NCBI GenBank assembly: GCA_004796425.1
Contig: QZLB01000089.1
Location: 1-37,262, forward strand
Direction: 5' to 3'
Source: Desulfobulbaceae bacterium
GTDB taxonomy: Bacteria > Desulfobacterota > Desulfobulbia > Desulfobulbales > Desulfocapsaceae
DNA length: 37,262 nt
A program made the position numbers and the translations under genes. Under the pieces are notes generated by a model that was given only the letters and a program-made list of their open reading frames with translations, ran no database searches and was not told where the DNA came from. Shown here piece after piece: positions 12,317 to 36,959 of the stretch; position 1 is the stretch's first letter, and each line of letters starts with the position of its first letter.

Positions 12317-12379
12317 GCACAGGATATTAAATTGTTAAAAACTCTGATGAGGATCTGGCTAGCGTAAGGAACCAATCCT

Positions 12380-13396: not shown

Positions 13397-13460
13397 AAGT
13401 AAAAGGGAAATGAATAGATAATATGAGAGGTGATTTCAGCGTGTCTAAATCTGCTGATAT

Positions 13461-14090
13461 TCAGTAATTTTCTTCATCTTCAAAATCAACCTCGGGGTAG
13501 TACTTATCCAAACATTCTTCACAGACACTGTGACTGAACTTTGCCTCGGAATGTGCCTGGATATAATTCTCCAGACGATTCCAGTAGCCCTGGTCATCAC
13601 GGATCTGTTTACAGTGAGAACAGATCGGTATGATGCCGCTCATCACCTTAATCTGAGCAAGCGCCTGCTCCAGTTCGACAATATAATGGGCACATTTACG
13701 CTCCGCCCTGATCAATCGGGCCATCACCCCAACCCGGGCCCGAAGCTCTCGATTGGAGACAGGGCGTGCTACGTAACCATCGGCACCAACTTCAAGGCCA
13801 TCAGCCTGATCATCGGTTTCGATCTTTCGACCTGAAAGCATCATAATGTAGATTGATTTATATTTATCATCGCTCTTCAACCGATGGCAAACCTCGGTTC
13901 CGAGGATATCGGGTAGTTCCACATCGAGCAGGATAAGGTCCGGCTGTTGGCGCTCAGTCTGTTCAAGACATTCTTGACCGGTTGCCGCTTCCGAGACGTC
14001 GTACCCCTCTTTTTTCATAATCCTGGCCGTCGCAAAAAGTACATCGGGATCGTCGTCTACCACCAATATCCTAATATCTTTATTATTCAT
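13461..14090 (-). CDS. Response regulator with C-terminal Cys4 (PICSHC) module
   Basis: The 209-residue protein has an N-terminal receiver domain (about 5-120) with Asp12/Asp13, phospho-acceptor Asp56 (LLLDVELP) and Ser86. The conserved KP lysine is replaced by Arg109 (VARP). After a coiled-coil linker comes a short module of about 50 residues, PICSHCKQIRDDQGYW ... FSHSVCEEC, with Cys157, Cys160, Cys190 and Cys193 spaced C-x2-C-x29-C-x2-C. This looks like a zinc-binding or redox element. The same module, with identical spacing, ends the PAS protein at 24911-26569. There is no DNA-binding domain, so output is probably by protein contact. The ATG overlaps the end of the upstream histidine kinase gene by 8 bases, which makes the two a cognate pair. 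Confidence 0.9.
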   Translation of the reverse strand: MNNKDIRILVVDDDPDVLFATARIMKKEGYDVSEAATGQECLEQTERQQPDLILLDVELPDILGTEVCHRLKSDDKYKSIYIMMLSGRKIETDDQADGLEVGADGYVARPVSNRELRARVGVMARLIRAERKCAHYIVELEQALAQIKVMSGIIPICSHCKQIRDDQGYWNRLENYIQAHSEAKFSHSVCEECLDKYYPEVDFEDEENY

Positions 14091-15207: not shown

Positions 15208-15551
15208 ATTTTTAGCTTTGGTTCCCGTTTGTTACCGATGAAATTCTCAGGGAATCTCTCTATCCTCCACAAAAGCCTATCTTTTTTTTGGTCAGTATTC
15301 AAGTTGTTTACGAGATCCACACCACTCTGCTCTGGGGTGTCGTTAAACGATATTTGCTATTCACTTCCTTCAACATCGTTCACACCATATTGCAAATGTG
15401 ACGCGTTATTAACCGAACAATGATCGAAATCAAACAGTTCACTGGTCAAGTAGCCCAATTAAAAACAGTCGTCGATCACAACCAATGGCTGCAAGCCTCC
15501 ACTGTTTCATCAATCATGAAAATACGTTATGTCTTTAACCAATAGTGCCCT
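15208..15551. other. Intergenic region between divergent genes, possible tiny ORF
   Basis: This region separates the histidine kinase (minus) from phnN (plus) and should carry both promoters, but I find no convincing promoter pair. A 41-codon plus-strand frame runs from ATG 15420 to TAG 15545 and stops 6 bases before phnN. It has no ribosome binding site and no recognisable motif. It could be a leader peptide, but support is weak and I do not call it a gene. Confidence 0.35.
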
Positions 15552-16106
15552 ATGAAATTACTGCTGATTGTCGGGCCCAGCGGCGCGGGAAAAGATTCGC
15601 TCTTGCGCGGTGCACGCGAGCATTTTAAAAACCATCCTGCTTTCGCTTTCATCAGGAGATACATTACCAGGCCACCGGACGACAATGAGGATAATTACTA
15701 TATCGATGATCATGGCTTTGCGTTACTTGAGAAATCGAATTTTTTCCTTTCTACCTGGCGGGCCCATGGCAATTGCTATGGAGTCTCTCGTCAGGCGCTT
15801 AATGGGGATTCCAGGGACGTTGCGATTGCGTCTATTTCCCGGACAGCAATTGAAGATTTTCAAAATCAGGATTTTGAGGCAACCACTCTGCTTATCACTG
15901 CTGCTCCTGAAATCCTGCAGCAAAGGCTTGCAGGCCGTGGCCGCGAATCAATTGAGCAAATCAAAGCGCGGTTGCAACGGTCACAACAGCAATTACCGAT
16001 ACACAACTATATCACCTTTGATAACTCTGCCCCACTTCACACGTCCATCTCCAAGTTCAATGCGCTACTGCTGTCTTTCTGCCCTCATTCACACTCAATT
16101 TCTTAA
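15552..16106 (+). CDS. phnN: Ribose 1,5-bisphosphate phosphokinase
   Basis: The 184-residue protein is a guanylate-kinase-like P-loop kinase with Walker A GPSGAGKDS at residues 8-16. The following RRYITRPP segment (about 35-42) is typical of PhnN and distinguishes it from guanylate kinase. The C-terminal half has the LAGRGRE lid region. PhnN phosphorylates ribose 1,5-bisphosphate to PRPP in the C-P lyase pathway of phosphonate use, or more generally salvages this compound. Length fits the family. The next gene (DUF1045) begins 6 bases downstream, the usual pairing in phosphonate clusters. No phnGHIJKLM genes occur in the window, so the core pathway, if present, lies elsewhere. Confidence 0.9.
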   Translation: MKLLLIVGPSGAGKDSLLRGAREHFKNHPAFAFIRRYITRPPDDNEDNYYIDDHGFALLEKSNFFLSTWRAHGNCYGVSRQALNGDSRDVAIASISRTAIEDFQNQDFEATTLLITAAPEILQQRLAGRGRESIEQIKARLQRSQQQLPIHNYITFDNSAPLHTSISKFNALLLSFCPHSHSIS

Positions 16107-16112
16107 TTTATT

Positions 16113-16784
16113 ATGAGAATCGCCCTTTACTGGACACCGAATCTGCTAACTGATCTCTCTCAACAAGCGGCTCAATGGTTCCAGCTTGACCAGAGTCCAA
16201 TTCCAACGCTCAGTGATGAGGCGTTCCGGCAATTACTTTCCGCACCCAATCATTACGGCTTTCATGCAACGATTAAGCCACCGTTTCGTCTCGATAACGG
16301 CTATACACTGGAAGATGTGGAAGAAGCCGTAACACGTTTTACCACAGACCCAGCCAACCATTCGTTTGACCTGCCGCTATTCAAGGTCGCCAGGATCGGG
16401 AATTTTTTCTGTCTGAAACTCCAGGATAACTCACCAACCTTGCAATCATTCGCCCAGAGTGTCGTCCGCCAATTCGATCACTTCAGAAAACCTGCAGAGG
16501 AACATGAAATCGAGCGTCGCCGCTCCGCTGGCTTAACCGAACGACAAGATGAGTTGCTGCTGCAATGGGGATATCCGTATGTGTTTGATGAATTCAGGTT
16601 TCACCTGACACTTACCGGAAAAGTTTCAGACCCCAGCCACTTTACATCGCTTGAAACGGAGATTAATACGCGGTTTGCACCTACGTTAAAGAGTCCTTTT
16701 GCCATCGACTCACTCACACTTTTTCTGCAACACGATAACCAGCCATTCTTCAAATATAAACGGTGGAAGTTACCCACCGTTTGA
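16113..16784 (+). CDS. DUF1045 phosphonate-metabolism protein (2H phosphoesterase fold)
   Basis: The 223-residue protein carries the two H-x-T motifs of the 2H phosphoesterase superfamily: HAT at residues 51-53 (within YGFHATIKPPF) and HLT at 164-166 (within FRFHLTLTGK). Its length and flanking residues fit the DUF1045 proteins found in phosphonate operons. Members of this fold open cyclic phosphates. In C-P lyase clusters lacking PhnP, a DUF1045 protein may replace PhnP in opening the ribose 1,2-cyclic phosphate intermediate; this role is inference here. It starts 6 bases after phnN and is surely co-transcribed with it. Confidence 0.88.
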   Translation: MRIALYWTPNLLTDLSQQAAQWFQLDQSPIPTLSDEAFRQLLSAPNHYGFHATIKPPFRLDNGYTLEDVEEAVTRFTTDPANHSFDLPLFKVARIGNFFCLKLQDNSPTLQSFAQSVVRQFDHFRKPAEEHEIERRRSAGLTERQDELLLQWGYPYVFDEFRFHLTLTGKVSDPSHFTSLETEINTRFAPTLKSPFAIDSLTLFLQHDNQPFFKYKRWKLPTV

Positions 16785-19433: not shown

Positions 19434-22400
19434 TTAAACCTTTTCACCTCTATAGTATTTTTCCCGTAAACCAATTAGCAGGTCCCATTGTACCGGTACC
19501 ACCATGATGGTCAGAATGGTTGCGCTACAGAGCCCGGTGACAAATGTCATGGCCATGCTTCCCCAAACCAACGAGTATTCTGGAATGCCAAGCGCCATTG
19601 GCAGTAAACCAAGGGTTGTGGTAACGGTGGTGAGCAGGATGGGGCGGAGCCTGATGTTGGTTGCCAGCAACAATGCGTCCTTTCTACTGAGTCCCCGCTG
19701 GTAACAATTGTTGAGAAAGGCTACGAGTACCAGCGAATCATTTACGACCACACCGGTAACACCCACTATGGCGACAAAACTGTTGATAGTAAAGAGTGTG
19801 CGGGAAAAGAAGGTGCCGTAGACAACCCCCGTCAGGGCAAAAATCACCGCTGAAATAATGATCAACGGTTGCAGATATGATTTAAACTGGGCTGATAATA
19901 CGAGATAGATCATCAGCAGTGCAAAAACGAAGGCATAGCTCAGCGAAACAAATGATTTTGTAGTCGATTCGTGTTCACCCGAGAAGTTGAGGACCGCACC
20001 GGGATAGTCATCCTGCACGGCTGCATAATAATCTTTAACCTTTTTGACAATCATCTGACTTGAGACCGGCGCTCCCGGTTTGATATCTGCCATCAGGGTA
20101 ATCGCCCGCTGGTTTTTGAACCGGTTGAGATATCCCGGCTCAACCAAATACTCAGCACTGCTGACATCACCGAGCCTGATTGTACCATCAACACCTTCCG
20201 CCACCACCATATCCAAGGCTTCTTTCATGGGTGCGGGATCGGACAACCTGGTCGTCACCTTGATATCAATCGTCTCATCCTCAAGTTTCATCTCACCAAC
20301 GATCTGACCGTTGATGATTGATGCCGCGAATTCGGCTATCCGGGTAACCGGAATTGCCCGCTCTGCCGCCTTGCCATGGTTTACTTTAATACGGAAAACC
20401 CGTCCACTGCTCCCCCGGTCATCCTGCAGATCCAGCAGCCAATCCATGATGTCCGGATCATTGATCAATAGCTGTTTTACCGCTTCAGCCAGTTGTGAAA
20501 TATTCTTCGTATCAGTGCCAAGAATCCGTATATTCAAATCTTTACCTGCGGGGGGGCCATCCTTTTCAGGGCGGACAGACATCACGGTATCGGGCGGAAT
20601 AAGTGGTGTGACCAAATCACGCATCGCATTGAGGTGTGCAATGATATCGTTTTCCGGGTAATCACCAAATTTCCGTTCATTCTTCTTCGGCAGGGTTACG
20701 GCAATATGCCCGAGGTTATTGCCATATTGTGGAGAGAAATCATCATTAATATAGAACCCTGCAAACCCCAAGGCAGATTCATTCATACCTGGTCCCCCCG
20801 CCATTAGTGCCTCGGCAACCGTGCGAACGAGTTCATCGGTCTCTTCGATGGGAGTTCCGGGCGGGCCGGTAAACTCTACATAGTAGAGAGAGTAGTTATC
20901 GGGAAAGAACGTGATCCTGAGTAGGTTGGTGATACCCAACATTGAACTGGCAAAGATGTAAACAGAAAAACCGAAGGCAACCCCAAGAATAAAAAGGGTT
21001 GTGAGCCGGTAGCGCAAGGCAAGTAGAACCAGCCGGTTAAAAATCGATCGTACCGCTCTCATGATACGTCCTTCCCCAACTCCAGCCAGATACTCATCCA
21101 GTGCCAACTCTTCGGCGGATCGGGATGGTTGGTTTTGTGTGTTTCGTGCACCAAAATCGAGATAATGACAGGGGAGCACCAGTAGACACTCAAAAATTGA
21201 GGCAATCAAGGCAAAGACTATGGTTATCGGAATGATGGCAAAAAAGTCGCCGACCATCCCGGTCATGATCAGCATTGGGAGGAAAGCCAGTGCCGTGGTC
21301 AAGGTTGCGGAGACCACCGGCAGGAATACTTCAGCAGTCCCCTGGACCACCGAGTCCACCAAAGATCTGCCTGCCTGGATATGACGATAGATATTTTCAA
21401 CCACAACGATCGCATCATCCACGATAATACCTGAAACAAGAACAAAGGCGAAAAGCGACACTTCATTGATTGAATTGCCCGTCAGGTACATGAAGATCAT
21501 CGTCACCAGAAATGCAAAAGGAATTCCGATGGTGGTAATCGCTGCATTCCTGAATCCCATGAAACGCCAGATAATCAAGCAGATCAGAATCACACCGAGC
21601 AAAAGGTTAACACCGAGGACCCGGAGCGAGTCGGTCACCCGGTTACTTGAATCCTGGGTAACCGTGAGGGTGATTTGCTCGTCTGAGAAAACCGGTGCCA
21701 GTTCACTTACCAGCCGTTTTACCCGCTCTGCGATAAAGAGCGCGTTCCCGTCTGCAGATTTCAGCACCTGCAGGGTTACACAGGGACTGCCATTAACCGA
21801 ACTGATGATAAACGGGTCCTGGTAGGCAAAGGAAGCCGAATCGATTATATCCCCAAGCCTAATAAAGGAGCCGTCACTGTCCTTGCGAATAATAAGCTGG
21901 AGCAGATCATCCCGGTTTGTTACCTGCTCATCGACCTTGACAATGAATTCTCCCGTGCGGGTCGTAATATGCCCGGCAGGATAGGAGATATTTGCGTTTT
22001 TCAGCTGCTCAACCGTCTCGCTAAAGGTCAGTCCATAGCGCTGCAGTTTATCTGGCGAGAGCAGGACATGAAATTCTAGTTGGTGCTCTCCCAGTAACCT
22101 TGTCTCCTTCACCCCGTCTATCTGAGATAAATGGATTTTCACCTCTTCCGCCGCTAAAGAGAGTGTTTTGTTATGATGATCGCCGGAAATGTTGACACTG
22201 ATGGTGGGAAACCAATCGTTTACATCAAGAAAGTTAAAAACGGGTGGTTCTGGGAGCGGTGGTAAATCCTCCAGAATTGAGAGCACCTTGAGCCGCACGT
22301 CGTCGAAACGCTTCTGATAGTTACTATCATCGGTGAATTTGATAACCACATTCGAGCGCTCGCGGTACGAGGTCGAGCGAATGTAATCAAGCTCCTCTAC

Positions 22401-22622
22401 ATCCTCAAGGGCATCTTCTATCTTTCTGGTAACCAGACTCTCCACATCAGCAGGAGAGGCGCCTGGTAAAAAGGTGTTGATATACATCTTGCCGAACTCT
22501 ATGTTCGGATATCGGTCCACCGGCATCCGCAGCACTGCAAATGCTCCAATGAGTATGAGCAGCACGAATGCTAGGTTAAAGACAACCTTCTGGGCGAGTG
22601 TGAACCGGATAAAATTCTGCAT
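19434..22622 (-). CDS. RND efflux permease (AcrB/HAE-type)
   Basis: The 1062-residue protein has the two-fold RND layout: a first helix (about 12-31), a large periplasmic loop, helices 2-6 starting near 335, a second large loop (about 560-860) and helices 8-12. The proton-relay pair Asp402/Asp403 lies in helix 4 (SGIIVDDAIVVVENIYRH), and the matching helix 10 has GVVVNDSLVLVAFLN. The start RMPVDRYPNIEFG and length are typical of hydrophobe/amphiphile efflux pumps. With the adaptor gene 25 bases upstream it should form an inner-membrane pump. No TolC-like outer membrane channel gene is beside it, so a channel encoded elsewhere is expected. The exported compound is unknown. The ribosome binding site is poor. 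Confidence 0.93.
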   Translation of the reverse strand: MQNFIRFTLAQKVVFNLAFVLLILIGAFAVLRMPVDRYPNIEFGKMYINTFLPGASPADVESLVTRKIEDALEDVEELDYIRSTSYRERSNVVIKFTDDSNYQKRFDDVRLKVLSILEDLPPLPEPPVFNFLDVNDWFPTISVNISGDHHNKTLSLAAEEVKIHLSQIDGVKETRLLGEHQLEFHVLLSPDKLQRYGLTFSETVEQLKNANISYPAGHITTRTGEFIVKVDEQVTNRDDLLQLIIRKDSDGSFIRLGDIIDSASFAYQDPFIISSVNGSPCVTLQVLKSADGNALFIAERVKRLVSELAPVFSDEQITLTVTQDSSNRVTDSLRVLGVNLLLGVILICLIIWRFMGFRNAAITTIGIPFAFLVTMIFMYLTGNSINEVSLFAFVLVSGIIVDDAIVVVENIYRHIQAGRSLVDSVVQGTAEVFLPVVSATLTTALAFLPMLIMTGMVGDFFAIIPITIVFALIASIFECLLVLPCHYLDFGARNTQNQPSRSAEELALDEYLAGVGEGRIMRAVRSIFNRLVLLALRYRLTTLFILGVAFGFSVYIFASSMLGITNLLRITFFPDNYSLYYVEFTGPPGTPIEETDELVRTVAEALMAGGPGMNESALGFAGFYINDDFSPQYGNNLGHIAVTLPKKNERKFGDYPENDIIAHLNAMRDLVTPLIPPDTVMSVRPEKDGPPAGKDLNIRILGTDTKNISQLAEAVKQLLINDPDIMDWLLDLQDDRGSSGRVFRIKVNHGKAAERAIPVTRIAEFAASIINGQIVGEMKLEDETIDIKVTTRLSDPAPMKEALDMVVAEGVDGTIRLGDVSSAEYLVEPGYLNRFKNQRAITLMADIKPGAPVSSQMIVKKVKDYYAAVQDDYPGAVLNFSGEHESTTKSFVSLSYAFVFALLMIYLVLSAQFKSYLQPLIIISAVIFALTGVVYGTFFSRTLFTINSFVAIVGVTGVVVNDSLVLVAFLNNCYQRGLSRKDALLLATNIRLRPILLTTVTTTLGLLPMALGIPEYSLVWGSMAMTFVTGLCSATILTIMVVPVQWDLLIGLREKYYRGEKV

Positions 22623-22647
22623 TTTCTATATACTTAAAGCGAGCGAT

Positions 22648-23670
22648 TCATGGCAGCGTTTGAGGGTTAGCAAGAAATTCCATTCCCCCTTGTAACCCTG
22701 TTCCAGCGACAACAGAAAGATACCCATCCTCAAGGACATCGAGGAGAACAACCTGCTGTCGTGTCCCATCTGCTTTTACCAGCCAATGAGCGCCATAACT
22801 GCTGATTAATGCAGTCGAGGGGACCTGGTAACCATCCTGGTCATTACTAATTACAAGCTCCAGGAGTGTCCGCATTCCACCACGAAGCTTTGGATTGGCG
22901 ATAACCTGGTCCTGATGAATGATCAATTCAATCGGTATTTTTCTCGTAACCGGATCAACTGAGGGTGATACCTGGGACAGCGCTACTTCAACTCGTTTGG
23001 CCAGATCAGGGACACTCAAATAGAGTACGTCCTGCCTTTTAAGCTGTTCCAGTTCATTGAAAGTCAGTGCCATTCTGACCAGCAACACATTAAAATTGCC
23101 CAGTGTCGCAATTTTTTGACCGATCGATATAAATTCACCCGGTTCCACAAACCGCTCAATAACCGTCCAACCGGACGGAGCTTTGATCGTATGCCGGGCC
23201 ATTGTTTCAGCAAGTCGGGCCTGCTGGTTCTCCAGTTCCTTCAAGCGAATTTCCGTGAGATCTACTGCCAGTAAAACCTCATCATATTCTGCCTGGGTCG
23301 TAGATTCCTTTTCCCGCAAGGCGGTAAATCGTTGCAGCGTCTTCCTGTCTTGCTGGAGTTTCCGTCTCGTCTGCTGGCGTGCCAGATTATTGCCCTCAAG
23401 CTCCAGTTTTACAAACGTAGGGTCAATCTGGGCAAATTGACTACCGTTCGAAACGTCCTCCCCAACATCGTGATAAATCTGCAGGCACCTGCCGCTCACC
23501 TCACTGGAAATTGTCACTTGCCGGGTGGGGTAGGTCAAACCACTGATTTGAACCGAGCGAAAATGAGGAATCAGCTGAACAGTCCGTTGTCCAAGACCCT
23601 TGGTAGGCACCATGATCAGCGCCCACGTCAATAGCGATATCACCAAACCAAAACGCGATAATATTTCCAT
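22648..23670 (-). CDS. RND periplasmic adaptor (membrane fusion protein)
   Basis: The 340-residue protein begins with an N-terminal signal or anchor sequence (to about residue 27). It then shows the adaptor order: a beta-barrel/lipoyl start (TISSEVSGRCLQIYHDVGEDV, about 53-73, quoted only as a landmark), an alpha-helical hairpin (about 85-160), the second lipoyl half (TIKAPSGWTVIERFVEPGEF) and a C-terminal membrane-proximal domain. It links the RND permease to an outer membrane channel. An AGGAT lies before the ATG. The permease gene follows after 25 bases, so this is a two-gene operon, and its promoter should lie in the 179 bases shared with the divergent gene at 23850. Confidence 0.92.
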   Translation of the reverse strand: MEILSRFGLVISLLTWALIMVPTKGLGQRTVQLIPHFRSVQISGLTYPTRQVTISSEVSGRCLQIYHDVGEDVSNGSQFAQIDPTFVKLELEGNNLARQQTRRKLQQDRKTLQRFTALREKESTTQAEYDEVLLAVDLTEIRLKELENQQARLAETMARHTIKAPSGWTVIERFVEPGEFISIGQKIATLGNFNVLLVRMALTFNELEQLKRQDVLYLSVPDLAKRVEVALSQVSPSVDPVTRKIPIELIIHQDQVIANPKLRGGMRTLLELVISNDQDGYQVPSTALISSYGAHWLVKADGTRQQVVLLDVLEDGYLSVVAGTGLQGGMEFLANPQTLP

Positions 23671-26773: not shown

Positions 26774-29095
26774 TTAGAACCGAAGTCGGAAGAACCTGAT
26801 CAGAAATGGTAGAACCAGCAAATCCATTACAATAGCCAGGGATATGGCCAATACCATGAGCGCCCCAAAGTGACGAATCGGTGTAAAGTTGGAAAGTATG
26901 AAAAGTCCGCAGCCTGATGCCATGACTGCAGAGGTAAAAAGCAGCGCCCGGCCGGAACTCCAGATAGTCTGCTCTAATGCTGACTCTATGGACTGTTCCC
27001 CGCTGATTTCTCTTCGGTACCGGACCAGGATATGAATGGTGTTATCAACCGCGATACCAATGGCAATCGCACTGATCATTGCCGTGGCAAAATTAAGCGA
27101 AAGCCCGAGATAGCCCATCAGTCCCATGGTCAAAATGACCGGTAGCATATTGGGAACCATCGAAACCGCGGCAGCCTTAAGCGAACGTAGTAACCAGATC
27201 ATCAACACAAAAATAATAACCAGGGTGATAAAGAATGAATCGGTCAAGCTATCAATCACCGAACGGATCTGATCATTCATACGGGTCGAATCCCCGGTGA
27301 TAATCACCTCGATATCTTTGTTAATTTCTGTGTCAAGAAAGTGTTGAAGATCGTCAATAAGTTGGATCTGTTCTCCAGTGCCATCAATCGTTAATCGAGC
27401 ACTCACTCGTGCCGTCATTCTATCTTTTGAAAGCAGTGATGAAAGTCCACTTGAGTCCGGGTTTTGGCCAAGAAAAAAGAGGCTTTCCGCAACAAATCCC
27501 TCCACATACTCAAAATCGAGAAAGAAATCAGAGGTACCCTCGAATTTTGTATACATCCAGTCAAACAGATCAGTTATGGCCAGTACGGTACCAACGTCTT
27601 CTCGGTGCTCCAGAAATTTGTCAATTTTAACAATTTCCACTAACCCCCATTTTTCTTCAAAACAGGCCGGATCGTCCTCCTCATTTTTCTGAGGACACTG
27701 CAATTCCAGTTCAACCGCACTGAAACCAAGCAGCTTTTCCTGAAGTACACTAAGTCCTTCAATGGACGGCGCTTTTTTTGGCAGAAATGAAGTCATTGAG
27801 GTCTCTACCCGAATCTGGGATAGTCCTGCCAGGGCAAGAAAAAAAAGCATCACCATCAGTACCATGACTTTTGACCCGTACCGCTGATTAAGCAGAAGCG
27901 CCGCTTGAATAAATCGGGAGAAAAGCGAGTTCTGATACTTTTCCTGTACCTTGGTTCCGGGGAGTTTCAAAAACGAAAGAACCACCGGCATCAATAGGGA
28001 TATCAGAACATATCCGAGCATAATCCCCACCGCAGACCAAATACCAAGCTGGCGTATATTTGAGAGTTTGGATACCGTTAGCGTAGCAAAAGCAGCTGCG
28101 GTTGTCATTGAGGTCAGGAGACAAGCGGTCAGCATATTCCCCATGGTAGAGAGAATAACCTCCCGACGGTTAGCACTGGCTCGTGCATGTTCGTAATAGT
28201 GAGTCAGTACATGAACGGCATCTGAGAAGCAGACAATGGCAATCATTGAAGGTAGCATCGCGCCCACCGAACTGATTTTCTCTCCTGATAGTGCCATGAA
28301 ACCCAGCGTCCATCCTACCGCAAGCATGGTGATGCCGAGCGGCAGCATCACACCACGAATGGTCCGGAAAGCGAAATAGAGCAAGATTGTCATGATCAGC
28401 CAGGTCAACCAGAAGAATGTCTTAAAATCTCGCTCAACCGCCGTTGCACTATCAGTCAACACAGGAGAAATTCCTGTAATATGCGTGGTGATACCAGCGT
28501 GCGCAAGGGTTTCGACCAGCTTTTCGATCTCCGAGATTACTGAAATAGCCAGTGATGAGCCTCTGGTCAGCGGTGGCAGGGTGATCGTGATGACAGTCAT
28601 GGTTCGATCGGCCGAGATCAAGATATCAGCCCAGAGCGGATTTGCTCGAATAACTTGGAATTTTTCCTGAAGGACAGCAGGATCGCGAGGGATAGTTTCA
28701 AACAGTTTGGCCATACTCACCTGGCCATATTCATCAAATACCGCATCCTCGACTGTGGTTATTGACTCAACTTTTCGAACGCCCTCAAAAGTGCTAATTC
28801 CCTCTGTCAGACGCTGAATCAGTTCTAGATTATCATGAGTGAGAATATCGTTTGCTTGAATTACCAGCAGGAGCAACTCTCCCTGACCGAATTTATCGGC
28901 CATTTCAAGTAAGTCCAACCCTGCCTGATCCTCGGTTCTCTTACCACCCTCACTGGTCTGGTCAATCAGTATGGTTGGGTTCTTGATAAAAGGAGAAAGT
29001 GCGATGAGGGTAATAATGCCGACAAGACAGATCACCCCAAACCGAAAGCGAAGCAGTAATTGCGTCAGCTTATATGGAAACGCTTTTTCCACCAT
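26774..29095 (-). CDS. MMPL/HpnN-like RND-superfamily transporter
   Basis: The 773-residue protein has about 12 membrane helices in two halves: helix 1 (about 20-35), a periplasmic domain, helices 2-6 (about 227-378), then helix 7 (about 410-427), a second domain and helices 8-12 from about 620. Conserved charged residues lie in each half: Asp292 in CFSDAVHVLTHY and Asp684 in GIAVDNTIHIL. Its size and pattern match the 'predicted exporters of the RND superfamily', including the hopanoid transporter HpnN and MMPL lipid transporters, and not AcrB. It is the last gene of a five-gene operon and starts 9 bases after the DctP-like gene. With TRAP-like periplasmic partners it may move a lipid or hydrophobic product between membranes. 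Confidence 0.9.
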   Translation of the reverse strand: MVEKAFPYKLTQLLLRFRFGVICLVGIITLIALSPFIKNPTILIDQTSEGGKRTEDQAGLDLLEMADKFGQGELLLLVIQANDILTHDNLELIQRLTEGISTFEGVRKVESITTVEDAVFDEYGQVSMAKLFETIPRDPAVLQEKFQVIRANPLWADILISADRTMTVITITLPPLTRGSSLAISVISEIEKLVETLAHAGITTHITGISPVLTDSATAVERDFKTFFWLTWLIMTILLYFAFRTIRGVMLPLGITMLAVGWTLGFMALSGEKISSVGAMLPSMIAIVCFSDAVHVLTHYYEHARASANRREVILSTMGNMLTACLLTSMTTAAAFATLTVSKLSNIRQLGIWSAVGIMLGYVLISLLMPVVLSFLKLPGTKVQEKYQNSLFSRFIQAALLLNQRYGSKVMVLMVMLFFLALAGLSQIRVETSMTSFLPKKAPSIEGLSVLQEKLLGFSAVELELQCPQKNEEDDPACFEEKWGLVEIVKIDKFLEHREDVGTVLAITDLFDWMYTKFEGTSDFFLDFEYVEGFVAESLFFLGQNPDSSGLSSLLSKDRMTARVSARLTIDGTGEQIQLIDDLQHFLDTEINKDIEVIITGDSTRMNDQIRSVIDSLTDSFFITLVIIFVLMIWLLRSLKAAAVSMVPNMLPVILTMGLMGYLGLSLNFATAMISAIAIGIAVDNTIHILVRYRREISGEQSIESALEQTIWSSGRALLFTSAVMASGCGLFILSNFTPIRHFGALMVLAISLAIVMDLLVLPFLIRFFRLRF

Positions 29096-29104
29096 AACCG
29101 TGTA

Positions 29105-30100
29105 CTACTCTGCACGTTGCAAAAGTTGGGCCCTGAGCTTTTCCAGCGCCTTGGCACTCGGTCTGACCCCCACATCAAGGTTTTCCAGTGATTGTTGGAA
29201 AAAAGACGGCCACTGCTCTGCAAAACTGTTCTCTGGCTCGGCAAAGACAATTCGATATCGCTGCAAAACTTTTACCGCCCCGGTGGAACGATCGGAGAGC
29301 GCATTGCTCATCAATAGAGAGAGCTTCTTGATACTTTCGGTCAATTCTCTGCGCTGTCCATAACTCAGTTCATTGAAACGACCATCTTCGATCAACCAGA
29401 TTCCATATGAGTAAGCAATGGGATAGGGAAAGATATGTTTCATCCTGGTATGCCATCGTTTCAGCACCAATAAAGGCAACGGAGAGATCAAGCCATCGAT
29501 CTCCTTACTTTTTAACCCCATCAGTACTTCTTTGGGATCATTCATTGATACGGTCATCCCAATCCCACTGATTCCGGACGTGGAGACGGAGTCTACCGGG
29601 GGCACCCAGATGGTCTGACTTTGCCAATCTGAAATGGTTGTCAGTGGCTTTGCTGAGACGAGATGCATGAAACCGAAACCGACGATCTTCAGTGCGGTGA
29701 AAGAACCGTCACTCAAACGTTGTAAAACAAAGGGGTCGAGTGCTGATCTAACCGAAGCAACCTGGTTCTCAGAGATGAAAGTAAAAGGTAACCCGTATAA
29801 TAACCCATCGGGATCAAGCCCGAGTGTTCTAAAGTCATGTTCTACAGCTAAAAGGCCGGCCAATTCTCCTGAAACAGCCATGTCGGCAAGTGAGTCATTC
29901 TGGTCTTTGACAAAACGCAATGAAATGGTCAGACCCTCTTCAGAGTCTTGATTAATTCGTTGGATTTCCTCGAACAGGAGCGTATGCTCCCTGGTATTTT
30001 CTGGAAAGGGTACTCCCAAGGTGAGATCACCATCAGATGAAACTGCAGGCTGAACATCCAAACTGAACAAGAGCAGGAGTATGATCCAAAGCGTTCTCAT
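29105..30100 (-). CDS. DctP/TatP-like TRAP-type periplasmic binding protein
   Basis: The 331-residue protein begins with a signal peptide (hydrophobic to about residue 20, cut near PAVSS). The rest fits a divergent DctP fold: GVPFPENTREHTLLFEE at the start, a central FTALKIVGFGFMHLVSAKPL segment and an ISDWQSQTIWVPP hinge, with an ISPLPLLVLKRW region later. Such proteins bind organic acids or, in the TatP variant, hydrophobic ligands. The ATG at 30100 is preceded by GGAGGG 8 bases upstream, inside the end of the TatT-like gene, so the gap between the two genes is only 2 bases; an in-frame TTG two codons earlier is less likely. No DctQ or DctM genes occur nearby; instead the RND gene follows. 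Confidence 0.8.
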   Translation of the reverse strand: MRTLWIILLLLFSLDVQPAVSSDGDLTLGVPFPENTREHTLLFEEIQRINQDSEEGLTISLRFVKDQNDSLADMAVSGELAGLLAVEHDFRTLGLDPDGLLYGLPFTFISENQVASVRSALDPFVLQRLSDGSFTALKIVGFGFMHLVSAKPLTTISDWQSQTIWVPPVDSVSTSGISGIGMTVSMNDPKEVLMGLKSKEIDGLISPLPLLVLKRWHTRMKHIFPYPIAYSYGIWLIEDGRFNELSYGQRRELTESIKKLSLLMSNALSDRSTGAVKVLQRYRIVFAEPENSFAEQWPSFFQQSLENLDVGVRPSAKALEKLRAQLLQRAE

Positions 30101-30102
30101 CT

Positions 30103-30972
30103 TCAATTCCCTCCTACCTTACAGCTCTCATCTTCGACCAGCTCTTTCTTTATCCTTACCGCTTCTTTCATTGCATATTCGTTAAACAAGGAAAACGCCG
30201 GATCGTCAGGAACACCCTTATTGATAACATCAGAAAGGGTTGCACAGCTTTGGGCATGCTTACCATCATTTTTCAGCCAGAGTGCAAAAAAGACGCTCGG
30301 CATGATGTTCTGCTCACCGGCAGCTTCTATCGCCCTACTAAAATGACGGTTGATTGTTTCACGCTCAGCCATTTCCATTGCGGCGAGCACTGCCAGGTAC
30401 ATGGAAGCCATACCCTTACGATAACCCGGCTCTAATGCAACCACCCGCTCCATAATGAGTTGGATGATCGGCAGATCTGCAATGGCATCCATGTCATCTT
30501 TTCGAACCCGTATCCACTCAAGCCATACCTCACCGATTATATACAGTGGCTCAAGATCAGCAACGGTGGCATTCTGAATTACTTCCTCAAACAGTGGATA
30601 ATCAATCATCCTGCCATTCTCGAAGACCGGAATCGTTGTGGCAGCCGCTTTCATTGCATATTCCAGTGCCGTGTCTGTAATCAACAAAGCTCGTTCAGGC
30701 TGCTCAACTAATTGAATGCCATAGAATCTGTAGAGTTGAGCCGCCGCCTGTAGAAGTGTCGGATCATCAGGCGTCTTGGCAAGCATTGATTCGATCATGA
30801 TGATATAAGTGGGCAGTGCGTCCTGTACTATTTTCGAATCCGGCACCCTGCTCATGCCCTTGAGGATATCATCCACGGAAGAAGAGAGTGGAAACGAGCA
30901 ACCTGATAGCAACAAAAACAACATCAGGCTAGTTACTCCTTGCTTATAGATGTGGTTTTTTAATTTCTTCAT
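30103..30972 (-). CDS. TatT-like lipoprotein (TRAP transporter T-component)
   Basis: The protein of about 289 residues starts at an ATG at 30972 and has a lipoprotein signal with lipobox LSGC (lipid-modified Cys25, Ser at +2, so probably outer membrane). The rest is all helical, with repeated TPR-like stretches (for example PTLLQAAAQLYRFYG and YRKGMASMYLAVLAAM), as in the TatT family first described for Treponema pallidum, where it pairs with a DctP-like protein. TatT trimers have pores and may guide a hydrophobic ligand. An in-frame start 75 bases upstream would overlap the previous gene and lack the clean lipobox position, so I reject it. The gene is followed by the DctP-like gene after 2 bases, the expected partner. 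Confidence 0.82.
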   Translation of the reverse strand: MKKLKNHIYKQGVTSLMLFLLLSGCSFPLSSSVDDILKGMSRVPDSKIVQDALPTYIIMIESMLAKTPDDPTLLQAAAQLYRFYGIQLVEQPERALLITDTALEYAMKAAATTIPVFENGRMIDYPLFEEVIQNATVADLEPLYIIGEVWLEWIRVRKDDMDAIADLPIIQLIMERVVALEPGYRKGMASMYLAVLAAMEMAERETINRHFSRAIEAAGEQNIMPSVFFALWLKNDGKHAQSCATLSDVINKGVPDDPAFSLFNEYAMKEAVRIKKELVEDESCKVGGN

Positions 30973-30997
30973 GGTAATCAGAGAAAATATTGAGCGT

Positions 30998-31909
30998 TCA
31001 TGCACTGCCTTTTTTCTCGAGATAGCCGGCACCCAGGTAGAATACAACCCCCGGCAATCGTACGATTAGCAGGCCCAAGCGTACTATAAACATCAGCTCT
31101 GCGCCATGTATATATCCACTTCTTGTAAAGGCCAACATCGAGATGGATTCGCCAAGACCAAGTCCTCCCGGGGTAATCGGAATACCATTGGCGATCATCA
31201 CAAACGGAATGTGAACGGCCGCAACAGAGAAATCGAGCGGGTGAGTAATCACCATACCGGTAATTTGAAAACTCAGGGCCATAAACACAGCGGCAATGCA
31301 GGAGAAGAAAAACGCCAGGCAAATCCAGAACGTCATCTCTTTTGCCGAAAGTTGAGGGGAATCATCAGAACCTGATGCGGACTGTTTCTTCTGAGCTGTT
31401 TTATAGATAATCCCTGCCGTTACAAACATGGTAACAACACAGGATATGACCAAAAACCACAGATGACTCGATGAGAGTATTGTGGGATCCCAGAAAAATA
31501 CACTGAAAAGTGCCAGCATGAAAAACGCACTTAAGGCAATAAGTCGGTCGAGCAATACCGAACTGATGGTTTTGACCTTCGCATTAGCCACATCTTTAGT
31601 GATGTAATAGAAGCGCGCTGCTTCGGCCCCAAGTGTACCTGGAGTCACCATCTGGAAGAAGTGGCCGATCCAGGAATAGACCAGAATTCGCCCCGGGGAT
31701 AGAGTAATGCCATTGAGACGAAGCAGGCACCACCAGCGCAACCCCTGGAAAGCTAAAGAGACGACCAGGGCGGCCAGAAGCGCCATGAGCCATCGCGAGG
31801 GCTCAAGGTACAGAAGTGTATCTAAGGAAAGTTTATTCTGAGAGAAAAGCCAGCCAAGAGCGGCACACGCAATGCCGCTCTTTACAAGGAAAATTCCAGT
31901 TTTACTCAA
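30998..31909 (-). CDS. UPF0104/HpnL-like (LPG-synthase TM region) membrane protein
   Basis: The 303-residue protein has about eight hydrophobic segments and the motifs of the lysylphosphatidylglycerol-synthase transmembrane (AglD/HpnL, UPF0104) family: FQGLRWWCLLR (about 54-64), VTPGTLGAEAARFYY (about 88-102), LLDRLIAL (about 119-126) and ITPGGLGLGESI near residue 255. Relatives help move lipid-linked intermediates or link to hopanoid making (HpnL). It has no catalytic cytoplasmic domain. The start is a TTG at 31909 without a clear ribosome binding site, 23 bases after mfnB, so translation may be coupled. The TatT-like gene follows after 25 bases. Position between a furan-phosphate synthase and a transport set suggests a flippase-like role for the product. 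Confidence 0.87.
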   Translation of the reverse strand: MSKTGIFLVKSGIACAALGWLFSQNKLSLDTLLYLEPSRWLMALLAALVVSLAFQGLRWWCLLRLNGITLSPGRILVYSWIGHFFQMVTPGTLGAEAARFYYITKDVANAKVKTISSVLLDRLIALSAFFMLALFSVFFWDPTILSSSHLWFLVISCVVTMFVTAGIIYKTAQKKQSASGSDDSPQLSAKEMTFWICLAFFFSCIAAVFMALSFQITGMVITHPLDFSVAAVHIPFVMIANGIPITPGGLGLGESISMLAFTRSGYIHGAELMFIVRLGLLIVRLPGVVFYLGAGYLEKKGSA

Positions 31910-31932
31910 TGGCTGGTATAGAAGCGGGATGG

Positions 31933-32646
31933 TTAGTTTTCGCGGACACTGGCCACAAAATCACTGACACCTTTCTCAGTAATTTTACAGGTTCGGTCAT
32001 TGCCATCGCACACTGCACCGCGAACACCAATAATGTCACAACCTATATCGTATACCATTCCCATATGCTCTTGCCTTACCGAGCCGGCAAGTGCGGTCTT
32101 CAGACCGTATTCATGGGACAGGTTGACAAAATCTTTCAGTTCCTGAACAGAAAGATTATCAAACAGCGTAGAACCATCTTTTATTTTGGTATCCAGCATT
32201 GCGACATCAGAACCTGAATCCTTGGCTACTTTGACGATATCCATGGCGGAAACACCACCAAATTTTTTGAAATCGGCATAGCCACACGCCACTTTGATGA
32301 TATCCTCAGAGACCATATTAATGGCTTTCACAGAGGCACTCATCATTGCCAGGGCTTCTTCGTAATTTGTCGCACCATAGAGACCAGCTTTCAGGTAATC
32401 GGCTCCGCAATGGGCCGCTCCATAAGAGGCGAGTGCAATGGTTCCGGGGATATTCGGCAGATCGCCTAGTGCCGCACTGCAGAGTACCGGCTCATCCTTA
32501 AACTCTTCGCAAATCGCTTTGGTAACCCATGGACCCTGTGCACCAAGTGACCCTTCTTTGACATTTTTAATGTCAACAATGTCACAACCACCTTTTACTA
32601 CGATCCGTGCTTCCTCAAGGGAAATCGGACTGATAAGAACTTTCAT
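31933..32646 (-). CDS. mfnB: (5-formylfuran-3-yl)methyl phosphate synthase (MfnB-like, DUF556)
   Basis: The 237-residue TIM-barrel protein matches MfnB along its length. Asp25 and Lys27 in DIVDIKNVKEGSLGA fit the Schiff-base site of the archaeal enzyme (Lys27), and Lys86 in ADYLKAG and the later MLDTKIKDGS segment (Asp152, Lys154/Lys156) fit other active-site residues. MfnB joins two glyceraldehyde 3-phosphates to form the furan 4-HFC-P, the first ring precursor of methanofuran in methanogens and methylotrophs. No other methanofuran gene (tyrosine decarboxylase, aminotransferase or ligase) is visible here. AGGAAGG lies 7 bases before the ATG, and a near-consensus promoter lies just upstream. 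It is the first gene of a five-gene operon. Enzyme class is secure; the final product in this bacterium is unknown. Confidence 0.93.
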   Translation of the reverse strand: MKVLISPISLEEARIVVKGGCDIVDIKNVKEGSLGAQGPWVTKAICEEFKDEPVLCSAALGDLPNIPGTIALASYGAAHCGADYLKAGLYGATNYEEALAMMSASVKAINMVSEDIIKVACGYADFKKFGGVSAMDIVKVAKDSGSDVAMLDTKIKDGSTLFDNLSVQELKDFVNLSHEYGLKTALAGSVRQEHMGMVYDIGCDIIGVRGAVCDGNDRTCKITEKGVSDFVASVREN

Positions 32647-32688
32647 ACAGGCACCTTCCTCATAAATATCGGTTTAAAAAACTTGCAA

Positions 32689-32717
32689 AATATATGCGGT
32701 TTCATTTTTCATGTCAA
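32689..32717 (-). promoter_or_regulatory. Strong sigma70-type promoter for the mfnB operon
   Basis: On the minus strand, TTGACA (32712-32717) is a perfect -35 box, followed by exactly 17 bases and the -10 box TATATT (32689-32694). Transcription would start near 32682, giving a leader of about 36 bases that includes the AGGAAGG ribosome binding site of mfnB. It is the best promoter match I found in the window. Confidence 0.8.
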
Positions 32718-33053: not shown

Positions 33054-34067
33054 ATGAAATCCATACTGAGTGAGAAAATCCGCAACTTTCTAATAATGGC
33101 AAGAATTGAACTTGCCGGATTTTCCTTCGTTGCTGTTCTTGGTGCGATGACCATAACAGGCCGGTCAATCGCACTGTTTGATGTAATTGCCCTGTTTATC
33201 TTTAACTGTCTCCTGGTAATTTTCGGTTTTGTACACAACGATTATGAAGATTATGAAATTGACAAAAGACTTCCCGAGCTGCAACACAGACCCCTGGTCA
33301 ATGGTTCGATATCTTTACAAAGCGCATTTACAAGCTCGATTCTACTTCTGCTCATCGCCATTGGTGGTGCTTTTCTACTCTACAGTCCGAAGGCAGCACT
33401 CCTGCTCAGCGGTGCCCTTTTTCTAGCCGGGGCCTATAACAAATATTCCAAAAGTCTGCTGGGTGCTGATCTTTTTTATGGCATTTCAGCCGGTGCACTT
33501 TTCTTGTTTGGTGCAGCTGCGGTGCAGGAATCGAGCGACTCATTCACGTTATTCACTCTGGCAATGGCTCTTGTCATGGTTCTGGAGCATCTTTTCTTTA
33601 ACATTGCTTCCGGACAGCTCAAGGATGTCCACTTTGACCGTACCGCCGGGGTAAAAACGCTGGCGGTTGCCTTGAGTCATGTAGAGGATGACATAACCGT
33701 CATCCATACTTCGTTCAAAGTGATTTGTCTGAGTATAAAAATAATTACCTATGGAACGATCTTTTCCCTGTTTTTCTTTTCAATCCTGCCCATGATCACC
33801 TGGCAGTTCGTGCTTCTGCTCTTTTTTTCCGCAGGTTCTTTTGGTCTCACCCTCAAATTGCTCAAAACACCAGTGGAGGAGCGGGAAAAGATCCTGGAAT
33901 ACTCACGCAAGCAGGAGATGTTTTCAAAATCCCTGATCCCGATGGTTTTACTCCCTGAAATTGGCATAACCTGGCTGTTGCTTTTCACTGTTGGCCCTAT
34001 CATCTGGTTTTCATTTTTCAATTATCTGCTCAACCGTGAATTTCTTGGCAATCCCAAAACCTTCTAA
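33054..34067 (+). CDS. UbiA-family prenyltransferase
   Basis: The 337-residue integral membrane protein has about eight or nine helices and both aspartate-rich motifs of the UbiA superfamily: NDYEDYEIDK (Asn62, Asp63, Asp66, Asp70; the NDxxDxxxD type) and GQLKDVHFDRTAGVKT near residue 190. These bind the prenyl diphosphate through magnesium. The NDYxDxEID form resembles archaeal-lipid (DGGGP synthase) and related UbiA members more than UbiA itself, but the acceptor cannot be told. It is divergent from the mfnB operon and is the first of three plus-strand genes, 11 bases before a methyltransferase. I infer that it could prenylate a furan or glycerol-type acceptor. Confidence 0.88.
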   Translation: MKSILSEKIRNFLIMARIELAGFSFVAVLGAMTITGRSIALFDVIALFIFNCLLVIFGFVHNDYEDYEIDKRLPELQHRPLVNGSISLQSAFTSSILLLLIAIGGAFLLYSPKAALLLSGALFLAGAYNKYSKSLLGADLFYGISAGALFLFGAAAVQESSDSFTLFTLAMALVMVLEHLFFNIASGQLKDVHFDRTAGVKTLAVALSHVEDDITVIHTSFKVICLSIKIITYGTIFSLFFFSILPMITWQFVLLLFFSAGSFGLTLKLLKTPVEEREKILEYSRKQEMFSKSLIPMVLLPEIGITWLLLFTVGPIIWFSFFNYLLNREFLGNPKTF

Positions 34068-34078
34068 GCAAATAGAAA

Positions 34079-34807
34079 ATGGATAAAGCAGCAACCCCAG
34101 CGGCACGGTTCGCCAAAAAAATCAAATCATACCTGGCTTTTGGCATCATACAACTGCTCCATGTCCTGCCAGGTTCTGTATTGAGAAACAGTGCCCAATT
34201 TGGTCAGTCGATGGAGTTTCACTGGTGGCTCAAGCGACATTTCGGATCCCATCACGCCTCCTTTGCCACCCGGGAGAGATTATGGGAATCCATCTTGGCT
34301 GATCTTGCGCCCCAGCAGCCTTTGTGTTGTTTTGAGTTTGGCGTTGCCTATGGTTATACAACCCGTTGGTGGTTGAGCAGATGCTCCACCATCAGCCGCT
34401 GGTATGGCTTTGACACCTTCACCGGGCTCCCTGATCCGTGGCTTGAGTTTGAGCAGGGTTCCTTTGATGCAGGGGGGCGCCCACCTGATATAAACGATAA
34501 ACGGCTTGAGTGGGTCATTGGCAGACTTGAAGAAACCCTGGATGAGGATCGATTTCAGGCGATGACCAGCAGTTGTCCTGCAGAGGGCCAACTGATCTTT
34601 TTCTTTGATCTTGATCTGTATGGCCCGACCCGTCATGCCATTGATATCATCCTTCCCCATCTGCGCAACGGTGATATCCTCTACTTTGATGAAGCCGCCG
34701 ACCTAGATGAACGACGTGTACTCATAGAGACAGAAGAGCTGCACAGTGAAGGGTTCAGCCTGATTGGCTCAACCCCGCTGGCATTAGCATTACGGAGAAA
34801 CGAATGA
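34079..34807 (+). CDS. Class I SAM-dependent methyltransferase (TylF/macrocin-like)
   Basis: The 242-residue protein has a SAM-binding Rossmann pattern: motif I FEFGVAYGYTTRWW (about 82-95), then WYGFDTFTGLPDPW (about 105-118), a GSFDAGG segment and FFFDLDLYGPTRHAID (about 178-193). These are typical of TylF/macrocin O-methyltransferase-type proteins, which methylate sugar hydroxyls and need a divalent metal, often bound by acidic residues such as the DLD here. A short hydrophobic stretch near the N-terminus (YLAFGIIQLLHVLPG) may tether it to the membrane. It starts 11 bases after the UbiA gene and overlaps the next gene by four bases, so they are co-translated. Confidence 0.82.
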   Translation: MDKAATPAARFAKKIKSYLAFGIIQLLHVLPGSVLRNSAQFGQSMEFHWWLKRHFGSHHASFATRERLWESILADLAPQQPLCCFEFGVAYGYTTRWWLSRCSTISRWYGFDTFTGLPDPWLEFEQGSFDAGGRPPDINDKRLEWVIGRLEETLDEDRFQAMTSSCPAEGQLIFFFDLDLYGPTRHAIDIILPHLRNGDILYFDEAADLDERRVLIETEELHSEGFSLIGSTPLALALRRNE

Positions 34808-35895
34808 ACAAGAAGGTTGTCCAGATTATCGCTCCCTGCTGGGTTAATAAAGGTGATAGATTAATGATCGATTCCCTCTATCAGGAACTTGGCCAGGACT
34901 ATTATTTACCGATACCACTATGGAATATGGTTCCGGCTTCACAGTTCTGGAGCCCGGTTAACTTCTTCAAAATGGGGATGCAGGGAGGTAAACGTTTTTT
35001 TCAAACAATGAAAAACGGTAAACCTTCGGTATTTCTTGATGCCTCGGGATACCAGCTCGGAGACCCGTGGGAAAAAATGAGCACCGCGTTAAGTATGCGG
35101 CTCACTTTTTACCAGTACTACAAGAAAAAAGGCGTAAAGCTAATCATGCTGCCCCAGTCCATGGGTCCGTTCACCAATCCACTGGTGGCTTCAAATGCGG
35201 CGGGCATCCTGCAATTGGCAGATCTGATTTTTGTCCGCTGTGAGGAATCAAGAAAACATGCACTTTCGGTCGGTTGTCCGGAAAAAAAGATCATGCTTGC
35301 TCCGGATTACTCGAACCTGGTTTCCCCAGAACCGGCAGATCTTGAAAAATGGCACGACGTGGTCTGCTTGGTGCCCAGTATGCGAATGATGGATAAAACC
35401 CCCGGTGACTTAAAGGATAAGTACTTTGAGTCGATGATCCGCTTCACGCAACTGATCAAAGCCAAAGGACTGAAACCCTGTCTTTTAGTCCATCAACAGG
35501 AAGATCTCACCCTGGCCCGGCAAATCAACGACGCGCTCGATACACCGGTGATGCTTGTTGATCCCGAACCGCAGGAGGCAAAATCCATAATTGCCTCCTC
35601 GCGAGCAATTATCGGTTCACGATATCACTCGATTGTCAGTGCACTCTCACAGGCTACCCCGATAATCGGCACCGGCTGGACTCACAAGTATCAATCATTA
35701 TTCAATGATTACGACAGTGTCGATTATCTGCTGGCAGACTACACTTCTGCCCGGGCCATAGAAGAAAGTCTGGATAAAGTGCTTGATGAGAATACACGGC
35801 CCGCGCTGATTTCCACACTCACCGAAAGAAGTGAAGCGCTGAAAGGACGTACCCGGTTGATGTATCAGCGGTTGAGAGAGGAGATTGAATCGTAA
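34804..35895 (+). CDS. Polysaccharide pyruvyl transferase-family protein
   Basis: The 363-residue protein fits the polysaccharide pyruvyl transferase family: a start with NKGDRLMIDSLYQEL in place of the usual NxGD motif, a central IMLPQSMGPF, and the C-terminal signature IGSRYHSIVSALSQATPIIG (about 271-290), with the conserved R-x-H-S-x-x-x-A. Members transfer pyruvate from PEP to glycans as ketals or, in some cases, act as glycosyltransferase-like enzymes (CsaB, WcaK). No glycosyltransferase gene is present in the window, so the acceptor is uncertain. The four-base overlap with the methyltransferase gene (ATGA) implies coupling. An inverted repeat follows the stop codon. Confidence 0.87.
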   Translation: MNKKVVQIIAPCWVNKGDRLMIDSLYQELGQDYYLPIPLWNMVPASQFWSPVNFFKMGMQGGKRFFQTMKNGKPSVFLDASGYQLGDPWEKMSTALSMRLTFYQYYKKKGVKLIMLPQSMGPFTNPLVASNAAGILQLADLIFVRCEESRKHALSVGCPEKKIMLAPDYSNLVSPEPADLEKWHDVVCLVPSMRMMDKTPGDLKDKYFESMIRFTQLIKAKGLKPCLLVHQQEDLTLARQINDALDTPVMLVDPEPQEAKSIIASSRAIIGSRYHSIVSALSQATPIIGTGWTHKYQSLFNDYDSVDYLLADYTSARAIEESLDKVLDENTRPALISTLTERSEALKGRTRLMYQRLREEIES

Positions 35896-35942: not shown

Positions 35943-36959
35943 TTACCCCGTTTGTCCTTTGCTACCCGTGCGGTTTTTTCCAAACCACATACCGCGCATG
36001 CTGTAACTCACCTCCAACTCGTTGCGGCAATTATACCAACAATCCCGGCAGCGGTTCTCTTTGTGCTCCTGACGAAGACGGGCAAGCAGTGTACGGTTAT
36101 CATCTTCCAGTATATGTCCAATGTGATCTTTCTGGAATTCAGGACACTTGGAGACAAATCCCCGCGGGTCAATATTAATCATATATTTTCCAGCGATACA
36201 CCCGGGGACGCCTTCAGTAATAGCCTGATCAAACTTCTCGAGAATCACCCGATTGGTAACAAAATGCGGATATTTCTTCTGCAGCGCAATGAGCTTGTCG
36301 GAAACCGGTTCCGGGTATTGCAGCGATTGGTCGTGGGTCTTCAGCGCAGAGTAAGCCTGAACCCGAAAGGTGCAGCCAATATCTCTGGTGATCAGGGCGA
36401 GCTCCTCCAGGTCAGGGAAGTTATCATGCATCAGGGTGAACATCAAATTCACCTGTGGTCGCCCCTTTACCTGTTCACTCTGAAAAATCTCAAGGGCTTG
36501 CAACGCCCGCTGGTAGGCTCCCGGAAACCCTCGCGCTTCGTCATGTTTCGCCGCATCTGCATAATCAAGACTGATCCCGACACCCCATAAACCGGCCTGG
36601 ATAAGTTCCCGGGCCCGCTCCCGGGTAACCAGAGAGCCATTGGTGGAGATGAATGCAAAATGATGCTGATCAACCGTTGCAATAATTTCGGTAAGATCGC
36701 TTCTCATCAGCGGCTCACCACCCGTCATACTGACCATCATCGGGCCGATCCGCGCAATTTTTGCGGCAGCCTCTTGAACCTGAGAGAGGGAGAGCTGATC
36801 ATGATTGATCTCCTTTCTCCAGACCGAGCAGAATTTACAGCGAAAATTACATTTATCCGTCAATTGCCACGAACACCATACCGGTTTTCGCAGCATGAAG
36901 GATTTAAAAAATCCCGAATTTTTCCTGAATTCGCTGAGATATTCTGGGAATGATTTCAT
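35943..36959 (-). CDS. Radical SAM protein with SPASM-like C-terminus
   Basis: The 338-residue protein has the radical SAM cluster motif at Cys37, Cys41 and Cys44 (DKCNFRCKFC), then the glycine-rich MTGGEPL SAM-binding segment (about 78-84) and ISTNGSL strand. The C-terminal 100 residues contain several cysteines (PGCIAGKYMINIDPRG, KCPEF, NRCRDCWYNC) in the order seen in SPASM or twitch domains, which hold auxiliary iron-sulfur clusters. Related enzymes modify peptides or small molecules or act as anaerobic maturases; the substrate is unknown. It is convergent with the pyruvyl transferase gene and lies 28 bases downstream of a MipA/OmpV-like gene on the same strand, so it could share that transcript. 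Confidence 0.88.
   Translation of the reverse strand: MKSFPEYLSEFRKNSGFFKSFMLRKPVWCSWQLTDKCNFRCKFCSVWRKEINHDQLSLSQVQEAAAKIARIGPMMVSMTGGEPLMRSDLTEIIATVDQHHFAFISTNGSLVTRERARELIQAGLWGVGISLDYADAAKHDEARGFPGAYQRALQALEIFQSEQVKGRPQVNLMFTLMHDNFPDLEELALITRDIGCTFRVQAYSALKTHDQSLQYPEPVSDKLIALQKKYPHFVTNRVILEKFDQAITEGVPGCIAGKYMINIDPRGFVSKCPEFQKDHIGHILEDDNRTLLARLRQEHKENRCRDCWYNCRNELEVSYSMRGMWFGKNRTGSKGQTG

Follow-up and report, generated by a model that had tools for sequence, protein, structure and literature searches.

The contig QZLB01000089.1 (assembly GCA_004796425.1; 37,262 nucleotides, analysed over its full length and hereafter called the window) comes from a marine sulfur-cycle bacterium of the Desulfobulbaceae and carries, on the minus strand at 26774-32717, an operon of five genes in which mfnB, encoding a furan-forming synthase, precedes genes for a UPF0104 membrane protein, a TatT-like lipoprotein, a DctP-like binding protein and an MMPL-type transporter. 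We propose that the operon forms one arm of a larger conserved cluster, about 14 genes in all, for the synthesis of a furan-containing isoprenoid lipid and its delivery to the outer envelope, a reading to which we give a little more than an even chance (about 0.55). A sequence-only reading of the window had suggested that the operon makes and moves a furan-based compound, which stands insofar as a furan-forming enzyme shares an operon with envelope lipid-handling proteins, but that reading missed the key partners. Given a UbiA-family prenyltransferase in the window and, on a second contig of the same genome (C305), a kinase, a prenyl synthase and a degenerate prenyl synthase, the furan-based compound becomes a furan-isoprenoid lipid.

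The five genes recur in the same order and direction, at 39-89% identity, in the metagenome-assembled genome (MAG) Desulfobulbaceae bacterium SZUA-575, which belongs to another genus of the same family. The gene-order conservation that the sequence-only reading had asked for is thus found in a second genus, and an order shared by two genera is more than chance. On the mfnB side, the conservation extends from the divergently transcribed UbiA gene to a MipA/OmpV-family gene cut by the contig end (Table 1), beyond which the SZUA-575 block continues with an MJ1255-type glycosyltransferase, a kinase resembling isopentenyl phosphate kinase (IPK), a prenyl diphosphate synthase and a 376-residue protein that belongs to no Pfam family. 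In the host genome, the window spans an entire contig whose right end shares an exact 127-base overlap with C305, and on C305 the four genes follow one another as in SZUA-575 (kinase 59% identical, prenyl synthase 82%, Pfam-less protein 55%). The functional unit therefore reaches well past 26774-32717, at least to the window end and onto C305, while the neighbours on the MMPL side of the block differ between the two genomes. UbiA keeps both Asp-rich motifs (NDYED..D and DVHFD) and the prenyl synthase keeps its DDxxD motif. The Pfam-less protein, present in 1 of 297 genomes of the phylum (the host itself), is called here a degenerate prenyl synthase; the name is tentative because its profile links are weak, both between the proteins of the two lineages described below (85% probability, E 6e-6) and, weaker still, to true prenyl synthases.

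The MfnB of the window is related to the solved MJ1099 (4rc1; E 6e-70), and its Lys27, a catalytic lysine, and Lys156 align with Lys27 and Lys155 of MJ1099, both residues being kept. Lys155 of MJ1099 has been named as catalytic (PMC11365854). The family (PF04476) is rare: with the host genome counted, it occurs in 2/58 near relatives, in 3/395 genomes evenly sampled from the phylum and in 3/93 genomes of the family, and a search of viral contigs returned none. As a methanofuran enzyme, MfnB might serve methanofuran-linked C1 metabolism and lie beside unrelated lipid transport genes by chance, and a third family genome with the gene (G850) does show it in a methylofuran setting. This explanation is already contradicted, however, by the gene order conserved across genera, by the 40% identity between the MfnBs of the window and G850, and by the absence from both the host genome and SZUA-575 of Mch (PF02289, the tetrahydromethanopterin cyclohydrolase) and MfnF (TIGR03123); we regard it as very improbable. 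The same searches found Mch and MfnF in G261 and G304, relatives from the phylum with MfnB in a methylofuran setting (their MfnBs also about 40% identical to that of the window), and recovered MfnF from four control genomes. A canonical methanofuran role was accordingly rejected, and methanofuran is not the product since the host lacks Mch and MfnF. Methanofuran and methylofuran biosynthesis (MfnB, MfnE, MfnF) resembles the cluster in combining the MfnB family with a kinase of the amino-acid-kinase fold; it differs in that here MfnF and Mch are missing, the kinase is of the IPK type and not MfnE, and prenyl synthases and UbiA stand in place of the tyramine and glutamate enzymes.

MfnB was also met in other settings. 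Streptomyces plasmids (loci L141, L142 and L143, about 11974-16431) carry a four-gene set of MfnB (45-47% identity), aldehyde dehydrogenase, alcohol dehydrogenase and methyltransferase, apparently another non-methanofuran use of the enzyme; unlike the present cluster, no prenyl or transport genes are annotated near MfnB at these three loci. A small (1.4 Mb) alphaproteobacterial MAG without Mch has an MfnB of the same group as the window protein beside a ParA-like gene (L046, 10001-10789).

When 84,980 species genomes were scanned with the MfnB pair, six relatives were returned, and among these a second, independent type of cluster emerged. Chromobacterium vaccinii, C. piscinae, a Paludibacterium MAG and Massilia sp. 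H-1 carry mfnB ahead of genes for an IPK-like kinase, an asparagine synthetase, a prenyl synthase, a HAD hydrolase, UbiA, a degenerate prenyl synthase and a second prenyl synthase (the C. vaccinii contig stops within the degenerate synthase, and the Massilia genes carry frame breaks). A thioester reductase gene comes next in C. piscinae and Paludibacterium, and further on in C. piscinae lie methyltransferase-like and ketosynthase-like reading frames, named by eye. The cluster of Chromobacterium and Paludibacterium (L045 9980-19683; L043 9989-19649) looks like an uncharacterised furan-terpenoid pathway. It shares with ours MfnB, a kinase with the same lysine substitution (see below), a prenyl synthase, a degenerate prenyl synthase and UbiA, and Mch and MfnF, both present in control genomes, are absent from the Chromobacteriaceae and Massilia genomes too; it differs by its own asparagine synthetase, HAD hydrolase, second prenyl synthase and thioester reductase and probably by enzymes of fatty-acid or polyketide type. 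The MfnB tree places the window protein together with archaeal MJ1099 and the proteins of the Chromobacteriaceae and separates it from 26 further MfnBs of the Burkholderiales. Canonical methylofuran MfnB neighbourhoods contained nothing that matched the prenyl synthases, the UbiA proteins or the kinases of the two clusters.

The kinase bears most directly on the chemistry. Its best solved relatives are IPKs, and alignment with two of these (8u0k and 7lnt) shows a lysine in place of the key IPK histidine (HGTGYVGK and HGTGAYGK vs HGGGSFGH and HGAGSFGH). The lysine is invariant in four kinases spanning both lineages, and the histidine is retained in two further IPK-type genes from the phylum, taken as controls. 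That residue, His60, is reported to occur in all IPKs and to stabilise the terminal phosphate (PMC9654404). Since it is replaced, the kinase may act on a phosphate other than isopentenyl phosphate, and we infer that furan-methyl phosphate, as for MfnE, fits its setting. The enzyme could instead be a true IPK that feeds extra isopentenyl diphosphate to the prenyl synthase while UbiA prenylates the furan made by MfnB, which would yield the same product class. The C305 kinase indeed passes the IPK model NF040647 (156.5 bits vs a cut-off of 120), adjoins the prenyl synthase and has IPKs as its nearest solved structures; nevertheless, the substitution occurs in both cluster types while other Desulfobacterota IPKs keep the histidine, and the Chromobacterium kinase falls just under the cut-off (116.8), so that we consider a true IPK rather unlikely. 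An IPK-like kinase and an IdsA-like prenyl synthase also recall archaeal-type ether lipid synthesis (IPK, geranylgeranyl diphosphate synthase, digeranylgeranylglyceryl phosphate synthase), and the best named relatives of the window UbiA include geranylgeranylglyceryl phosphate geranylgeranyltransferase. That pathway differs from the present cluster, which contains a furan synthase and in which no geranylgeranylglyceryl phosphate synthase was seen.

In the transport arm, the TatT-like protein carries a lipobox and is far from the other TatT proteins found in relatives, and its sequence matches in the PDB, like those of the DctP-like protein, are weak. After that of SZUA-575, the nearest MMPL relative in the sampled phylum genomes is 31% identical, and the flanks of 20 MMPL relatives (25-31% identity) contained no TatT or DctP neighbour, a few of these stretches being short and one having its MMPL gene uncalled. 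The MMPL protein fails both HpnN models (TIGR03480, 103.8 vs 751.85; NF052374, 56.7 vs 1100). The set had been described from the sequence as TRAP-like (tripartite ATP-independent periplasmic), a mechanism that does not hold: the DctP-like protein of both the window and SZUA-575 has a tryptophan at the position of the TRAP ligand arginine, and no DctQ or DctM membrane subunits lie beside the operon in either (no genome-wide search was made). TRAP uptake was therefore rejected for the cluster.

The closest functional plan for the transport arm is that of the Methylococcus sterol proteins BstA (MMPL-type), BstB (a binding protein) and BstC (PF16811), each of which binds sterols (PMC10942540). 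In both cases an MMPL-type transporter of the resistance-nodulation-division (RND) superfamily, a periplasmic binding protein and a PF16811 TatT-type lipoprotein stand beside a lipid pathway. The likeness is one of plan and not of membership since the binding protein comes from another family (PF03480, DctP-like, here; PF12974 in Bst); moreover, the match to the BstA model is just 17 bits, and the neighbouring pathway would be furan-isoprenoid and not sterol, no sterol genes being seen in the window. Solute-binding proteins usually serve uptake, and the DctP and TatT families take their names from uptake systems, which would favour uptake, with the arm bringing in or recovering a lipid or other ligand from the surroundings. 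We find import improbable, given that MMPL-type pumps usually export lipids or move them outward (Bst and HpnN being precedents), that the ligand arginine is lost and the cluster has no TRAP membrane subunits, and that the operon is shared with a furan synthase.

Taken in sequence, the genes suggest the following pathway. MfnB would condense two molecules of glyceraldehyde 3-phosphate into (5-formylfuran-3-yl)methyl phosphate, the reaction known for the family, and the IPK-like kinase would most likely convert a furan-methyl phosphate to the diphosphate, the role that MfnE plays in making methanofuran. Coupling of the furan to an isoprenoid chain may then fall to UbiA and to the prenyl diphosphate synthase together with its degenerate partner, and the resulting compound would be decorated by methyl, pyruvyl and glycosyl transfer and by the radical SAM (S-adenosylmethionine) enzyme. 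The UPF0104 protein would flip the product across the inner membrane and the MMPL, DctP-like and TatT-like proteins would relay it outward, as proposed for BstA/B/C with sterols, a step suggested by the common plan rather than by close homology. It is tempting to go further: bacteria may employ the methanofuran ring as a building block for isoprenoids, with furan-methyl diphosphate from the kinase acting like an allylic substrate in a heteromeric prenyl synthase or in UbiA. The result would be outer-membrane isoprenoid lipids capped with a furan, and their delivery by an RND/binding protein/TatT relay would follow a general plan for polycyclic or isoprenoid lipids; this extension is possible but speculative.

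Several points weigh against the proposed furan-isoprenoid pathway. The five-gene arm is known from only two genomes. The cluster MfnBs form no clade of their own: methylofuran-type loci (L050, L052 and L054) fall among them and the MfnB tree therefore does not define function. Between the two lineages, UbiA is 25% identical, a likeness at the level of the family only, and the degenerate synthases 22%; the predicted structures of the degenerate synthase and the DctP-like protein had a mean predicted local distance difference test score (pLDDT) of 36 each and were not used. Finally, no homologue of the transport genes was found in the Betaproteobacterial cluster, which has extra asparagine synthetase, ketosynthase-like and thioester reductase genes, so that its product may differ. 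This last finding would also suit two separate arms, a furan/isoprenoid pathway and an independent lipid transporter that stand together for other reasons, as mfnB sits there with biosynthetic genes. We consider such a separation distinctly improbable: in both Desulfobulbaceae genomes the transport operon opens with mfnB, and elsewhere TatT and DctP genes are missing beside the closest MMPL relatives.

In the literature found, MfnB has been characterised solely in methanofuran synthesis, and its furan ring is otherwise familiar mainly from this coenzyme of the methane cycle. In two phyla MfnB now stands with prenyl synthases and UbiA in genomes that lack the methanofuran route, which suggests that its furan has a second use and that a class of lipids awaits characterisation. 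The statement of the sequence-only reading that no described system has this gene set still holds, as our literature search, whose scope excluded most subscription journals, turned up no report of MfnB clustered with isoprenoid genes. The RND, binding protein and TatT plan has also gained a second example, through which a role of TatT proteins in lipid handling becomes testable.

At the level of the operon itself, the five genes were all found as first placed, on one strand, with coordinates, starts and families confirmed and intergenic gaps of exactly 23, 25, 2 and 9 bases given the starts in Table 1; they form the longest tight same-strand run of the window. The near-consensus promoter assigned to them fared less clearly. 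The site is the only one in the window that scores at least 11/12, a score that about 2% of random 407-base spacers with matched dinucleotide content would be expected to reach, but a looser scan gave no excess of promoter-like sites and the promoter thus stays a prediction.

Table 1. Features of the five-gene operon and of the conserved block beside it (window coordinates; percentages are identities to SZUA-575)
Feature	Position	Strand	Evidence
mfnB, (5-formylfuran-3-yl)methyl phosphate (4-HFC-P) synthase	31933..32646	-	start ATG at 32646; PF04476 242.9 bits; 89%
UPF0104 / LPG_synthase_TM flippase-like membrane protein	30998..31909	-	start TTG at 31909; PF03706 82.6 bits; TIGR00374 47.2 bits, above cut-off; 57%
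tatT-like lipoprotein, lipobox LSGC	30103..30972	-	start ATG at 30972; PF16811 118.7 bits; 51%
dctP-like periplasmic binding protein	29105..30100	-	start ATG at 30100; PF03480 47 bits; NF037995 96.7 bits; 39%
MMPL/HAE3-type RND transporter	26774..29095	-	start ATG at 29095; PF03176 142.8 bits; TIGR00921 200 bits, below cut-off; 57%
Promoter-like site TTGACA-17-TATATT	32689..32717	-	11/12 consensus match
UbiA-family prenyltransferase, divergent from mfnB	33054..34067	+	PF01040 101.6 bits; 69%
SAM-dependent methyltransferase-like protein	34079..34807	+	weak PF13578 match, below cut-off; 56%
Polysaccharide pyruvyl transferase	34804..35895	+	PF04230 90.9 bits; 68%
Radical SAM enzyme	35943..36959	-	PF04055 85.8 bits; 75%
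MipA/OmpV-family outer-membrane protein, cut by contig end	36988..37260	-	64% to the SZUA-575 protein, itself PF06629 120 bits

Three further loci lie elsewhere in the window. At 5452-8687 (minus strand), genes for a PF12974 periplasmic binding protein of the phosphonate type and for a GGDEF/EAL-like signalling protein overlap by four bases, a hint that ligand sensing and cyclic di-GMP are coupled. An AcrB-type RND pump and a HlyD-type adaptor, separate from the cluster, are encoded at 19434-23670 (minus strand). At 15552-16784 (plus strand), a PhnN-like kinase gene is followed by a DUF1045 gene (PF06299), a phosphonate-metabolism pair in a window without C-P lyase genes.

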